A DNA stretch of 64,000 nucleotides from Naganishia liquefaciens (lineage: Eukaryota; Basidiomycota; Tremellomycetes; Filobasidiales; Filobasidiaceae): positions 558,001 through 622,000 of the forward strand of contig BLZA01000007.1 in the NCBI GenBank assembly GCA_013423385.1. The letters run 5' to 3'. Made by a program: the position numbers and the translations under genes. The notes under the pieces are model-generated. The model made no database searches, was not told where the DNA came from, and worked only from the letters and a program-made list of their open reading frames with translations. Below, in pieces: positions 30,763 through 40,559 of the stretch; position 1 is the first letter of the stretch; each line of letters starts with the position of its first letter.

Positions 30763-33700
30763 ATGAGCACACCGCTGTCCAGTGAGGTATCGGTCGGTGT
30801 CGGAGGACAAGCTGGTCCAGCTTCTCCGCTTCGCAAGAGCCTTGCAGCGTCAAAATGGATAATCCTGGCGAGTTTGCTCTCGTTCGTTACTGTATACTGG
30901 ACAACGTGTTCATATCTGGACATCCAAGCGGACCTTGGAAGATGGGGATGTCGGATGAGCTGGATGAGTCCGAACTATGTCCGGCTCGCCGGGCCTTCTG
31001 GATCAGCCGTGAGAGGTTTAGAGCGGAAATATGGCCTTTGGCTGTATAGGGAAGGTGGTCTACAATCCGACGTACAGGTGAAGACTCAAGCGGCGACAAC
31101 TCCGGCTTCGCTAATCTAACCTTGCTTCAGCCTAGAGGGATGCCTGTGTTATTTATCCCTGGAAACTCCGGATCTTTCAAGCAAGTGCGATCCATAGCCT
31201 CCTCCGCCGCGCACCAGTTCTACGAGCGAGCCGAAAGATCAGGCTCGGCCATCGGCTTCGTGGAGGATCGCGCAGCGAGCGAGCGATGGCAGGAGCTCGA
31301 CTTTTTTGCTGGTAAGCCTTGATGCGTGAATAGCAGGCCATCCGCTCAGCCCTCCATTCAATACAGTGGATTTCAACGAAGAGTTTTCGGCATTTCACCC
31401 AAACACCCTTCGCGATCAGTCTCTTTACGTGGCTCATGCTATATCGTACATTCTGTCTCTATATCCGGCCGAATCGCCGGCCTCGCTCAATATAATTCTC
31501 GTTGGACACTCTATGGGCGGGATAGTCGCACGACATGCGGTAACTCGTTCGAACAGCTCTTCGGTTTCCGGCATCATCACGATGTCTACTCCACACTTGG
31601 TCCCACCTGTCACCTTCGAGCGAGGTATGCAAAGGCTTTACGATGAGCTCAATTCGAAAGTTTTATCTACCCATCAAACAAGAACGGCACTTAGTCTTGC
31701 ACAACCGGTCCCTCCAGTCCTCGTATCCATCTGCGGAGGCACGGCGGATACGCAGATCTCGTCCGACAGCTGCGCATTGAAGATCATTCAGATGGGATCC
31801 GGCGGCGATCCTCAACACTCGCGAGGACGTATTGACAATGGCTCTTTTGCGGTCTTCACGACCGGGATGGAAGGCGTCTGGACCGGTGTCGACCATCAGG
31901 CGATGGTATGGTGTGATCAGGTGCGACGGGTGGTGGCTGCGACCCTGCTTGATATGTCGGCAGCGAATCGCGACCGCAAACATGCCGATCCAGTCGAACT
32001 AGTCGATCTACGCGAGAAGCTATCGCAGAAAGCACGACGGCGGTTACTCGGTGAAAGAACGGTACAAGAGCTTCGCGGGAAAGCAACGGGGATGGGAGGG
32101 TTTTCGGAAGGGGATGCTGTGGAGATTACACTTGAACAACCCACTTTCAATCATGTTGGCTCGTCACATGCGGTATACATCGTCAAAGTGCCTCCGACCG
32201 TCAAAGGCGTACAGGTAATCGGCAACATGCGAGTGAATGGCGTAGGAAGGGCGGGCGGGTCAAAGATGACGATCCATCTTGGGATTTCTAAAGCGGCCTT
32301 GCATGGGGAAACGCTTCCCCTGTCGACGCTGCGTGTCTTGCCGAGTTCACCGAGCGCATCTGTAAATGCTGGATCGCATAAGGCATTTCCGCTTCAAGGT
32401 GAGGGCGTCAAAGATGACGATCTTATGACCTTTGCGGAGGCCGTTCTCGAGCCTGCAAATCATGATCGGGAACTTTTCCTGCAATTGGACGGGCCTGCAA
32501 GGGGTTCGATCGCGCTTCAGGGAGGAGCCCAGAGTCGTAAGCTATTTTGTTTTTCCCGCAGATCGACCATCTCGTTTACGACATTCTTCAGCGTCTTGGC
32601 GACCGATCAAGCAGTCCAAAACCTTCCCGGATGTGACTCAAAGTTCTGTAATTCTGCGAGAATTGCAGATTCGTCGACCTCCAGGGTGTTCTGGTAAGAG
32701 CTTCAGCTTGGAAGGTGCGGACGCTCCGCGCTGATCATTGTCCAAATGTACAGCGTCAGCGTCCGCGGCTTTCAGCACCTTAGTCGAGCACGTTTCGCCG
32801 GCGACTGGATCTACGGTGGAAAGCCGGATGTATCCTCGAGTTGACACGCACATCCCCATACATTCCCATCTCACTGCCGCCCCTTATATCAGTCATTCGG
32901 ATCATAAAGCTCACCAGTCCACCAAGACAGGGCTCACAGTCAACGTGTGGCAAGATCCAACTGACCGCTGTGCGGTGCAGGCTGTGTCATTTCGCGTGAA
33001 ATGGGTGACATCTCTAGGACTCCTGGTAACGAGGTACAGGATGACTATTTTGGCCTGGATGATAGGGCTTGGCTCTTTGGTCGTTTGCGCGCAGTACCAA
33101 CAATATCGTCGCACTGGTAAGTCCTCTCCATATACCAGAAATCCGAGACCTGATCTTTCGGTTAGGTGTCTTTCCTGCTTTCCTCGATGTAATGGGGCGT
33201 TTGAATGGGAAACCCTTGATGGGACTCTTGTCGTCTCTCGTCGTCGCTTGCATCGTGCAAGCAAGTCCGCTCTTCCGCCTTGTCCACAATCCAGAGGACT
33301 ACCTCTTAGGCGTCCCGGAATGGTTCTCCGCCTTGCTGGTTTTTCCCGTCCTTGGATTATCCTACTTCTGCCTCCTAGCTTCTCACTTTGCCATTTCCGC
33401 CTTGAGTATGGCTTTCAGGCTGTTGATGGCAAGAACTCGGCTTCTTGGCGTCCCGCGGTGGGTAAATGAGGTGCGGCTTCATGATCTATTGCAGCTGACA
33501 TCTTCGGGTTTCTTCTAGCTCTTCCGACGATAGACAGCATTTTGAAGCGCGACACCTGACTTCAATACTCGCGCTCTCGGTTTTGGTCAAGCTTTTCTTT
33601 CCGCATCAATTCGCTTTTTTGGCTGCGTTTACAGTCCAACTACTAAACGTTTCCAGCTGTGATCGAGCATTAGTCCGTATCCGCCCAGCTTTCTCGTCGT

Positions 33701-34251
33701 TCTGGGGCTGATACTCTGTTACAGCATGCCGCCTCGAATCGTCCTGCGCTATACCATAGTCTCCTGTTGGTGCTGCTCTGGCTTCTTCCGGCACATGGTG
33801 CAGTGCTCTTCGTCTGGATTCGCAATCTGCTTGTTCTGGTTGAGAAACGGCCTCAAAATGGAATGACAGGCGGAACACGAGGCTCGCCTGGATTTGCGGA
33901 GAACACTTTTCTAACCGGTGAAGATCATGCGCTTTGGCATGTCTTCGCCATTTTGATCATTGTCGAGGCTTGTTCTGCAGGCAAGACGCTGGAGATAAGT
34001 CTGAAATAGTGAGTAAAGTCTAAAGTAGCTATTGGTGGTGATCTGACAGTACATACTGTTCCACTGTCAGCCAACCATTCTGCTATGCGACAGAATTCAG
34101 CTTGCTGCTTTTCGCTAGCACCGCCTTCCTCGTGGGACCCCGATATTTTTACGTTGTCGTGGAGACAGCGCAGGTTTTTATGTTCGTGCAGGCAGCTTGG
34201 TATCTCGCTCCGAGTGTCGTCGCTCGATTCCGCCAGTCAGCGGAGCCATGA
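30763..34251 (+). CDS. BST1: GPI inositol-deacylase (PGAP1/Bst1)
   Basis: This ER membrane lipase removes the inositol acyl chain from GPI anchors and supports ER exit and quality control of GPI proteins. The N-terminus has a membrane anchor ([20 protein letters not shown]) followed by [15 protein letters not shown]. The lipase domain shows [34 protein letters not shown] and the nucleophile elbow [19 protein letters not shown] beta-rich middle and a polytopic C-terminal half follow ([77 protein letters not shown]). The protein ends [10 protein letters not shown]. The start is uncertain: MSTPLSSEV at 30763 or MTKGSASSV at 30697. Splicing around 32,540-32,755 is also uncertain, because a 25-nt pseudo-intron could shift the frame. 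Confidence 0.9.
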
Positions 34252-34836: not shown

Positions 34837-36761
34837 ATGCGACGAATGCTCATCTTTTCCGTTTTGGGGGCAATCACTGTCGGTGCTCTCCTTGTACAAA
34901 CTGCACCCTTGCCATTAGATGGAAGAAAAAGGGACAGCGTGAGTCTCAGCGTGTCTCCAGAGAAGCAGCAGCAAGCTAATCGGCTCATTGCTTTAGTTGC
35001 CTCCAACGCTAGAAGCGCCTCATACAAGTGCTATGCCCGCCTCTCATCGCTTGGTTTCCTCCATCGATCCTCATTCCTACATTCTCGGAGTCGGATCTCC
35101 TGCAAGGCTGAAGGGGCGTCGTCTGCCCGACGAGGATCAAAGCTCTGTATCGGCGCTTTCAACGGGATGGGGAGATGCTCCTAAAGGAAGAATGGGAAGC
35201 CGGCCTAAGACGGGAATTGGCGGCAAACCCAAGAAGAGAATTGGGGAGAAACCCAATCAGGGAATGGGCCGGAAGCCCAAGACAGGTATGGGCCAGAAGC
35301 CGAGAGGCTCCTTCGATTACGAGAAAGGTCAGTGACCGCCAATGTCGAAAAGGACACGCGCATTCCACATTTTGACTGACACTCTGCTCAGATATCAGGA
35401 CTGGAAGAGCTGCAGGCAATCCGGCCCCTCCCAATAGCTCGAGAGGAGGCCCTCTTCCCGGCGGTGACGCCTACATCCCGGAGAATCGGATGATGGCAGA
35501 TGACGCCGGGACTGTAAGCAGAGGAGCGGCCATTGGGAATGAAGTGTTATCTGGAACCACCGGTTAGTAACATGTTTCCTGCGATGAAACAGGACTCAAA
35601 AATAGCCGTTAACACCTCTTCTGGACTCATCATCCCCTTCCCGTATGCTTACAATGTCGCGAAATACCATATATGGGGACCTTCTTGAGCGTAGAATGGG
35701 GCAAACGCGCCGCCGCGATCACAGAAACACCTCGATTTTACAATGAGGCTCATGGCGAAAACCCGAACTCAGCTCCCACGAACAGCAAAGATAATGCCAG
35801 GGCGGATTTAGCTCCCGGATATGGCGATGTCAAGACGTTCGCGGCCGAAAGCGAAGCGGAAAGTCCCTCGACCATCAATCCATCTTCACCTGACATGCAA
35901 AGGGCGAATCAAGTGCCCGCCTTCGATAGTGTCGGAGCGAGTCCTGCCATGAACGGTTTTTCGGAAAGCTCGCGACACACTGATCCGGCAGATGTTGTGT
36001 GGACAAAGCGACAGGATGCAGGCACCAGCGATTCTAGAAGATCGCAGAATAAGATACCTGTCGCCGACATTGTTTGGGACAAGCGGGTTGATACGGGCGC
36101 GAGCGGCTCTCAAAGACTCGATGTCATACAGGCTGCCGGATTTGATCACAGCAGGCGAGAGGATTCAACCGTTGCTGGCCCCCGCGTCTCCGCGATCATG
36201 CAGATCAAAGATTATCACTGGTACAAGCGAGAGAGACCGAGACCCAACGATGCTGCCGAACACAACGCCATGCAAGCCGCTGACATAGTTTGGGACAAGC
36301 GACATAGTAGAGAGGTCAGCGAGCTTCCCTTGCTCGATGACCTGCGGGTTTCGACCGAGTGTGACGAACAAGAGGAAGCGGTTCTACAACATTTCCATGC
36401 ACGAGCCGAAATGCCAGGTGACAATGACCGGCAGATCAAGCGGCAGAGTTCAACCGCGAACAATGCCCTCGAGAGCCAAGACATGCAGGCGGCCAACTTT
36501 GACTGGGGCAAACGTCAAGCCGCAAGCGAATCCGAGAAGTCCACAGCGTCGCAGCAGCGAGCAGGACATCCTGACGGCTTCATTACGGTAGACAGAAGCA
36601 CCTTGCCTAGTGCTGTCGGCGCTTCCGACCGAATCTCGAAGCGAGAGGAAAGCGATATCATCTGGGAGTTCCTGCCCAAAGGGCAATCACGCATTGGTGG
36701 CAGTGGCCAGGCGACTCGAGATCTCGAGGGGCATGACGGTGTATCTGGACCTCGTGGGTGA
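34837..36761 (+). CDS. Secreted repeat preproprotein with Kex2-type (KR) processing sites
   Basis: I do not recognise a named family. Proposed exons are 34837-34938, 34997-35327, 35392-35562 and 35695-36761, giving 556 residues in one frame. Residues 1-23 (MRRMLIFSVLGAITVGALLV and on) form a signal peptide, followed by a GRKR site at 29-32. Residues 97-138 hold five basic Gly-x-Gly-x-Lys-Pro units. The C-terminal half holds an 8-residue core ending in Lys-Arg at residues 300, 325, 349, 373, 397, 444, 468 and 511: ADVVWTKR, ADIVWDKR, AGFDHSRR, KDYHWYKR, ADIVWDKR, DNDRQIKR, ANFDWGKR, ASDRISKR. EWGKR lies at 202-206. The spacing is 24-25 residues in most cases. There is no later membrane segment. 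This is the layout of a precursor cut by Kex2 into several peptides. The third intron (132 nt) is the least certain; without it the first part stops at 35567. Confidence 0.72.
35183..35308 (+). repeat. Gly-x-Gly-x-Lys-Pro coding repeat
   Basis: Five imperfect units of 7-9 residues (GRMGSRPKT, GIGGKPKKR, IGEKPNQ, GMGRKPKT, GMGQKPRG) sit in exon 2 of the secreted preproprotein. The segment is strongly basic, in contrast to the acidic/aromatic repeats downstream. Confidence 0.85.
35988..36515 (+). repeat. 24-25-residue tandem coding repeat with W-x-Lys-Arg core
   Basis: Core starts lie at 35988, 36063, 36135, 36207 and 36279 (75, 72, 72 and 72 nt apart), then at 36420 and 36492 (72 nt apart) after one degenerate stretch of 141 nt. 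Two cores are identical in protein (ADIVWDKR) but differ in DNA, so the repeat is kept at protein level. The segment before most cores is QA, QI or PV. Confidence 0.88.
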
Positions 36762-37706: not shown

Positions 37707-39561
37707 ATGTCCTACCTCCTCAGACCCGCACGCCACTTCGGGCGACCCCTATCTGAAGTGAGCTTTGCTCGAAGCGCGAGGTTCAACCGAATCTTCATCG
37801 CAAACATGTCCGGGACAACGCAAGAAGCTCGCCAGATCCCCTTGTGGATCAACGGTCAAGACGTCGTGACCTCCAAGACCTTTGAAGTTCGGCATCCAAG
37901 CTCTGGGCGAGCCGCTTCGAGCGTCTGCTCGGCGACCAAGGCCGACGTGTAAGTCGTAATCCCATTCGTTCAGGCTGATGTCATTGACTCCATCTTCTTC
38001 TACCTCTAGAAATCGTGCGATCGAGGGCGCTCGGACTGCGTTCCCCGCATGGGCAAAGACTCCCGCTACGGAACGACGGGACATCCTCTTTAAAGTTGCT
38101 GCCTTGATCGAGGCCAAGAAGGAAGAGCTTGGCGCAGCCTATGTCCATGACACCAATGTCGCTCCAATCGTCGTTTCGGCCGATCAGGGCTTCGCCCTCA
38201 GCCATATGAAGAGCGGAGCCACCATTGCGACCGAAGTTCGCGGCGAGATCCCGCAGACGGCCGATGGCTCGCTCGCGCTTGTGACTCGAGAACCGTACGG
38301 TGTCGTCTACAGCGTCTGCCCCTTCAATATGGGCTTAACACTCTGTGTCCGAACATTCTGCTATGCCTTGGCTTGCGGTAACACTGTCGTCTTGAAAGCA
38401 TCACCTGCAATTCCATTCCTTCACTACTCGCTGGGACCGCTGTTGAAAGAAGCCGGCGTTCCCGATGGCGTGGTTCAAATTCTCCAGTACGCGCCTGGGA
38501 CGGAGGCCGAGTTGACAGAACAAGTTATTGCTCATCCGCACGTTCGAATGGCCAATTTCACGGGATCGACGAAGGTTGGCAGCAGCATCGGCGCCCTGTG
38601 CGGCAAGTATATCAAGCCATGCTTGCTCGAACTGGGTGGGAAAGCACCGATCGTCGTTTTGGAGTCTGCCGACCTCAAGCTCGCAGCGAATAATATCGTC
38701 TTTGGCGCTCTGCTGCACTCTGGGCAGATCTGCATGAGCTCTGAACGAGTGATTGTCGTTGAGAGCGTCGCGGACAAATTAGTACAAGAGATCCAGGAGA
38801 TTGCAAAGAGTGAGCATTGCGACATTCTCCGTAGTCGACCCTGACGCTCCGCCTTCTAGATGAATTACCCGCTTTGGGCCATATGGAGTTGGCGAGCAAG
38901 ATGGGCGTTGAGAAGATGGATCGCCTAGTCAACGACGCCCTGAGTAAAGGTGCGAAGCGTCTGACGGTCGAGTCGGTTTCAGACAAGAAGGTGCAAGAGG
39001 GCGCGAACGCATACATTCCCGTCATTCTGGACAACGTTAAGCCCGACCAGGACATTTACTATCAAGGTACGTCAATGTACTTGTACAATCACCTTCCTAT
39101 GTCTGAAGTCTGAGATACAGAAACGTTTGGCCCCGCCTTTGTGATCATTCGAGCCAAAGACGTTGATCATGCCGTCCAAATCGCCAACGACAACGAGGCC
39201 GGCCTTTCCGCCTCGGTATGGACAAGAGACTACAAGGAGGCCTTGGAAGTTGCCAAGCGAATCGAGTCTGGAGCTGTAAGCTGGAGTGGGAAGCTTGGTT
39301 CTTCTCAGACTGATCCGCCCATGGTACAGGTTCACATTAACGGATCTTCCGTTCACGACGAGCCTAACCTGCCACATGGGGGCATGAAGGTAAAAGACAT
39401 TTTCTAATATGGCTGTTTGCCTAGCTGACTGTTTTGGGTCTTCGCTCCAGACATCTGGCTTTGGGCGGTTCAATGGCATGGCTGCCATTCAGGCGTTCAC
39501 GCAGACCAAAGCCATCACCATGCACGAGCCTCATGCACTGCCCATCGCATACATGAAGTGA
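37707..39561 (+). CDS. NAD(P)-dependent aldehyde dehydrogenase (vanillin/salicylaldehyde type)
   Basis: This is an aldehyde dehydrogenase superfamily enzyme. It most resembles the branch that includes vanillin and salicylaldehyde dehydrogenases, so an aromatic aldehyde substrate is likely but unproven. Visible motifs are REPYGVVYSVCPFNMGLTLC, ACGNTVVLKASPAIPF, NFTGSTKVGSSIG, CLLELGGKAPIVVLESADL with the catalytic glutamate, GQICMSSERVIV with the catalytic cysteine, ETFGPAFVIIRAKDVDHAVQ, NDNEAGLSASVWTRDYKEAL, and the C-terminal SGFGRFNGMAAIQAFTQTK. Several short introns are present. The first ATG gives an arginine-rich, acid-poor leader (MSYLLRPARHFGRPLSEVSF) that could target mitochondria. 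A second in-frame ATG at 37806 would give a leaderless form. Confidence 0.93.
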
Positions 39562-40464: not shown

Positions 40465-40559
40465 GCCTGGTTAGCTCAGTCGGTAGAGCGTACGACTCTT
40501 AAACATCTTCAGGATGCGAAGGCATCGTACGGTCGCGGGTTCGAGCCCCGCATCGGGTT
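40465..40559 (+). tRNA. tRNA-Lys(CUU), intron-containing
   Basis: The cloverleaf is complete: acceptor GCCTGGT pairs with ATCGGGT (with G-U pairs at 1-72, 4-69 and 6-67). The D arm is GCTC...GAGC, the anticodon stem TACGA/TCGTA, the loop CTCTTA..A with anticodon CTT, and the T arm GCGGG TTCGAGC CCCGC. An intron of about 22 nt follows position 37. The terminal G1-U72 pair is unusual, and the exact ends could be off by a base. Confidence 0.9.

Follow-up and report, generated by a model that had tools for sequence, protein, structure and literature searches.

A gene of four exons lies on the forward strand at 34837-36761 of the window, the 64,000-nucleotide stretch of the Naganishia liquefaciens genome analysed here (assembly GCA_013423385.1, contig BLZA01000007.1, positions 558,001 to 622,000). 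The spliced model of 1671 nt, stop included, encodes a protein of 556 residues, as the sequence-only reading of this DNA had proposed, and the introns begin with GTGAGT, GTCAGT and GTTAGT and end with TTTAG, CTCAG and CGTAG. The protein starts with MRRMLIFSVLGAITVGALLVQTAPLPLDGRKR, which resembles a signal segment and precedes a KR site. The gene is composed of the following features:

34837-34938, forward strand: exon 1, with the start, the hydrophobic signal-peptide-like segment MRRMLIFSVLGAITVGALLVQTA and then KR at residues 31-32
34939-34996, forward strand: intron 1, 58 nt, GTGAGT...CTTTAG, with a branch-like CTAAT
34997-35327, forward strand: exon 2, a pro-region; contains the basic repeat G-[MI]-G-x-K-P-K-x of eight residues (DNA period 24)
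35328-35391, forward strand: intron 2, 64 nt, GTCAGT...GCTCAG, with a branch-like TTGAC
35392-35562, forward strand: exon 3, a Gly/Pro-rich linker; the least certain exon, with a weak coding score
35563-35694, forward strand: intron 3, 132 nt, GTTAGT...GCGTAG; the longest intron, in which the pattern used found no branch-like site
35695-36761, forward strand: exon 4 with the stop, the repeat array and conserved tail, encoding the last 355 residues

The 5' neighbour is a GPI inositol-deacylase gene, with a PGAP1 match in the ORF at 31330-32697 and, on the same side of the gene, a sub-threshold PGAP1_TMD match in the ORF at 33674-34009. An aldehyde dehydrogenase gene (match at 37960-38844) is the neighbour on the other side. 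Fourteen of the 17 window ORFs scanned have a listed Pfam family (two below the cut-off), all of them housekeeping, transport or regulatory. The 556-residue protein matches no Pfam family at E up to 1, and exon 4 has no sequence match in the PDB at the same threshold. A tRNA gene at 40465-40559 is the sole Rfam match above its gathering score in the window.

The signal peptide is called from hydropathy only. The hydropathy value of exon 1 is reached by six of the 900 ATGs that are followed by 34 open codons on both strands of the window, the gene's own ATG being among the candidates; two of the six carry a basic residue at positions 2-5. A proline stands directly after the likely signal cleavage site, and signal peptidase dislikes proline at this position. 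The in-frame codon-usage scores, on a scale uncalibrated on known genes, are 0.098, 0.072 and 0.016 for exons 1-3 and 0.186 for exon 4, and some reverse frames of exons 1 and 2 equal or exceed the in-frame score. The coding status of exons 1-3 lacks codon-usage support and is weaker.

Downstream of the signal region, the protein contains 13 dibasic sites, 10 KR and three RR, where at least eight had been claimed. Six of the seven tryptophans in the last exon sit in a W-x-K-R motif. Among 200000 residue shuffles of this exon, the largest number of tryptophans in such a motif was two, reached in 40 shuffles, and the next best of the 187 stop-to-stop ORFs of at least 100 residues in the window has one W-x-[KR]-R. 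The motifs, the units that they terminate and the tail are arranged as follows:

35697-35708, forward strand: first W-x-K-R motif, WGKR, residues 203-206
35940-36011, forward strand: unit ending PADVVWTKR, residues 284-307
36012-36086, forward strand: unit ending VADIVWDKR, residues 308-332; 25 residues, with an internal RR
36087-36158, forward strand: unit ending AAGFDHSRR, residues 333-356; degenerate, having lost its Trp
36159-36230, forward strand: unit ending IKDYHWYKR, residues 357-380
36231-36302, forward strand: unit ending AADIVWDKR, residues 381-404
36444-36515, forward strand: unit ending AANFDWGKR, residues 452-475
36645-36758, forward strand: C-terminal tail EESDIIWEFLPKGQSRI... 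after the last KR, containing the best conserved 20-residue block

All of the 8-residue cores described earlier occur in the protein (ADVVWTKR, ADIVWDKR twice, KDYHWYKR and ANFDWGKR), but the repeat is sharper than that description: the true unit is 24 residues, composed of 22 residues plus Lys-Arg. Consecutive motif ends in the window protein are spaced by 101, 25, 48, 24, and 71 residues. The spacing of 48 comprises two units, of which the first is the degenerate one, and that of 71 is the sum of 47 and 24. Five of the six units in the array end in W-x-K-R and the sixth ends in RR. Cutting at KR and RR yields 14 fragments after the signal, four of which are exactly 22 residues long once trimmed, with a charge of -1 to -3 and a mean hydropathy of -0.21 to -1.12. 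The C-terminal tail resembles a final unit without a dibasic site.

Six units of the window protein and eight of a homologue, P0001, give the 14-unit consensus xxxxxxxSRxSDxMQAADxxWxKR, in which R24 is present in 14 of 14 units and W21 in 13 of 14. Three profile rows were left out of this alignment, two lying outside the array and one out of register. Among the six window units, identity rises from 9% at positions 1-13 to 33% at positions 14-20 and 60% at positions 21-24. These units are old; they have kept their processing end, and their length has hardly changed. Recent duplication as the origin of the repeat was considered and rejected, because the only repeat reported by TRF is the 24-nt one in exon 2, with no array of 72-nt period, and the mean pairwise DNA identity of the six units is 43.1%.

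The sequence-only reading had proposed a homologue search with the 556-residue protein. Against 5.77 billion proteins, this search returns one relative, P0001, with an E value of 1.6e-60 and 39% identity, which is 445 residues long and stands for four sequences from two contigs (source lgn). The search scored 8000 candidates, both with the single query and with a two-sequence profile built from the window protein and P0001, and the profile again gave P0001 and no other protein at E up to 10; since only 8000 candidates were scored per search, the absence of further homologues is unproved. None of the 8000 candidates scored gave a homologue of the precursor from a named member of the Filobasidiales. 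As a check of database cover, the neighbouring 833-residue protein returned 12 clusters, namely the window's own, five from Naganishia and six from lgn, ena or jgi; the Naganishia relatives are 47-57% identical and the lgn, ena and jgi sequences reach 70%. The Naganishia matches indicate that the database holds Filobasidiales proteins. Within its own genome, the gene has no paralogue at E up to 10 with either the window protein or P0001 as query. P0001 has no match in a Pfam scan.

P0001 contains nine W-x-x-R motifs, spaced by 103, 24, 46, 24, 24, 24, 24, and 24 residues. A 24-residue register is thus common to the two diverged proteins. The W, K and R positions of the motif are kept in P0001 in 17 of 18 cases vs 131 of the 336 other exon 4 residues (Fisher p 2.4e-6), a contrast that is somewhat overstated because the aligner favours matching Trp. 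Against a profile of the P0001 units, the window protein scores 42.7 bits and the best shuffle 10.0 (1315 reported of 2000); as the two proteins are homologous, this score shows shared units rather than independent origin. Conservation of the Lys-Arg sites in homologues had been put forward as decisive for the precursor reading, and was checked in the one homologue found. Both basic residues are kept in five of the six aligned W-x-K-R motifs, but in three of the ten P0001 units the lysine is replaced by Asp or Asn while W and R stay (WSNR, WTDR, and WGDR). One further P0001 unit, judged by eye, has lost both W and KR. Cleavability is therefore not strictly kept. The best conserved of 17 20-residue blocks is the tail block starting IIWEFLP, in which 15 of 20 residues are identical in P0001. 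Conservation is higher in this tail than in the units, and the main product might therefore be located there.

The P0001 ORF contains no signal-peptide-like start, and its N terminus matches exons 2-3 no better than chance (184 of 2000 shuffles were as good). P0001 lends no support to exons 1-3 of the model, signal peptide included.

The genome searched comprises 19.4 Mb in 28 contigs. A kexin gene lies on contig 6, with P_proprotein matches of 1.3e-16 and 8.7e-4; catalytic motifs and a membrane-like segment were read by eye in its frames. DPPIV_N (Ste13-type) matches are found on contig 17. STE3 matches occur at two places, on contigs 4 and 11. Those on contig 4, at 273.8-274.8 kb, lie between two identical 40-residue ORFs ending in CVIA, which are located at about 273226 on the reverse strand and 282916 on the forward strand, inverted and about 9.7 kb apart. 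A scan for CaaX ends covered 39.6 kb around the STE3 matches and gave six rows, two of them these ORFs. The two ORFs are taken for the mating pheromone. The second, weaker STE3 match, at 1051302-1052000 of contig 11, may be that of a Cpr2-type receptor or of a pseudogene; one matched stretch has two TGA codons, which an intron could also explain.

Mating in this species most likely uses the ordinary basidiomycete STE3/CaaX system, as judged from these matches. Given separate STE3 and CaaX pheromone-like genes together with a kexin, the precursor is not the usual mating pheromone. The protein itself, at 556 residues and ending in GPRG, also differs from a basidiomycete CaaX pheromone. The proposal of a Kex2-type multi-peptide precursor distinct from such pheromones is supported.

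Secreted fungal proteins of this layout were named KEX2-processed repeat proteins (KEPs) in 2019 and are defined by a signal peptide, four or more fragments after KR/RR cleavage, and at least three similar fragments (PMC6339444). A later survey detected 7878 KEPs in 1345 of 1461 strains, 2560 of them without homologues, and an average of 1.00 per strain in Tremellomycetes, where they are reported to be scarce (PMC7329392). The window protein resembles the KEPs of both reports in its signal-like N terminus, 13 dibasic sites and imperfect repeats between them. Its 14 fragments include at least three similar ones, as judged from the consensus and profile rather than the published FIMO pipeline. 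The kexin needed is represented by the P_proprotein matches and the catalytic motifs seen by eye. The signal peptide and the lack of another membrane segment are judged from the hydropathy value only, exon 1 having no homologue match. The window protein differs from the KEPs described in having no Pfam match and a single homologue found.

We therefore consider the gene to be probably a KEP precursor, secreted and releasing several small acidic peptides that contain Trp. This assessment concerns the precursor as such; the alternatives of a wall peptide, a hormone and a RiPP discussed below are roles within it. The earlier statement that no family could be recognised holds for the sequence, and fails for the kind of protein, since thousands of KEP proteins are already known in fungi. 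The sequence family itself looks undescribed, though it may fall within one of the 838 published KEP types. In full-text literature, figures and supplements aside, the strings ADIVWDKR, AADIVWD and MQAADIVW were not found, and among the matches listed for Naganishia or Filobasidiales with Kex2, no title concerned this gene.

KEP peptides of basidiomycetes have been detected by mass spectrometry, including mushroom peptides that end in -AADW, such as SGTGEASAADW of L. edodes and SGVAADW of Pleurotus (PMC9769878); an 'XSDW' end is also described (PMC6339444). These agaricomycete peptides and the window units share an Ala/Asp/Trp-rich core end at or near the dibasic site. However, the window units usually have two residues between D and W and one after W (AADIVWD-KR), and are 22 residues long vs 7-11. 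The likeness is a short-motif resemblance and serves as a lead only. Six kep knockouts of C. cinerea showed no phenotype when grown axenically (PMC9769878), so the function of such peptides may be subtle.

An alternative to the precursor reading itself is that the protein is not cut, and that W-x-K-R is a structural repeat of a secreted or wall protein rather than a protease site. The replacement of K by D or N in P0001 units that keep W and R fits this idea, as does the position of the most conserved block in the tail. The intact motif in five of the six window-array units, with RR in the sixth, and the presence of a kexin speak against it, and we regard it as quite unlikely. If the protein is cut, the fragments could be surface-active wall peptides that form fibrils on the cell surface, like those of the Ustilago maydis repellent Rep1. 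Rep1 and Rsp1 of U. maydis are described as secreted basidiomycete proteins with imperfect tandem repeats separated by KR, and the Rep1 layout of signal, repeats and sites is alike (PMC4617103). The unit length is held near 24 despite sequence divergence, and the whole peptide could pack. In addition, no hydrophobin match was found in the genome, in a search that was silent in control genomes too. However, Rep1 units are 34-55 residues long and amphipathic, whereas the window units are 22 residues, acidic and hydrophilic, a comparison that for the window units draws on mean hydropathy and charge rather than amphipathicity; the hydrophilic units of Rsp1, of 18 or 21 residues, are closer in layout. 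A Rep1-type role is unlikely, if worth keeping in view.

Ascomycete alpha-pheromone precursors likewise contain multi-copy peptides cut at KR, and the Trp-bearing units separated by KR could be read as an alpha-factor-like hormone sensed by a receptor. The DPPIV_N matches would fit such a precursor, and STE13 signatures have been described in basidiomycete KEPs (PMC6339444). By eye, however, none of the 13 sites is followed by a run of XA or XP dipeptides and only three by a single one, the protein has no Pfam match, and the genome has STE3 matches beside CaaX-ending ORFs. STE2 has no match in the genome, in a search that is equally silent in control genomes. A hormone of this type is very unlikely. 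Still less probable is a dikaritin-type RiPP, in which the cores would be crosslinked after synthesis. The precursor layout is compatible (PMC9769878), but tyrosine is present in just one of the six window units, and UstYa (DUF3328) is unmatched in the 17 window ORFs scanned with Pfam and in the whole genome, the latter being weak evidence as control genomes were silent too. DUF3328 neighbours are reported at only 103 of 1680 basidiomycete KEPs (6.1%; PMC7329392).

Under the preferred KEP reading, the signal peptide would direct the precursor into the secretory pathway, a Golgi kexin would cut it after Lys-Arg and Arg-Arg, and a Kex1-like carboxypeptidase would trim the basic residues off the fragments. 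The predicted products are linear peptides, acidic and some 22 residues long, with the consensus xxxxxxxSRxSDxMQAADxxWx, some of which start with Gln and could become pyroglutamate. Most likely, the released peptides would serve an extracellular function, in signalling or in interactions with other organisms, and not that of a mating pheromone. Such a role is likelier than one in the wall, since the fragments, in contrast to those of Rep1, are hydrophilic, acidic and short. A bolder suggestion, which we rate as unlikely, is a new Filobasidiales peptide-hormone family: acidic 22-mers of nearly fixed length ending in Ala-Ala-Asp-x-x-Trp-x, with several variants per precursor, sensed extracellularly, independent of CaaX/STE3, and possibly sharing a function with those mushroom KEP peptides that end in Trp.

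The Cryptococcus peptide Qsp1 comes from a short single-peptide precursor that is processed otherwise than the window precursor. It provides an example of a secreted peptide signal in a tremellomycete (PMC7537855) and has a role in quorum sensing. For most KEPs no role is known, and in Tremellomycetes, which include Cryptococcus, they are reported to be scarce. A conserved, well delimited set of 22-residue peptides in a yeast-like relative would make non-mating peptide roles testable.

The basic 8-residue repeat of exon 2, which the P0001 ORF lacks, lies at 35207-35282 with a 24-nt period and 3.2 copies by TRF, or about five by eye. It may form a distinct segment that binds the wall or polyanions.
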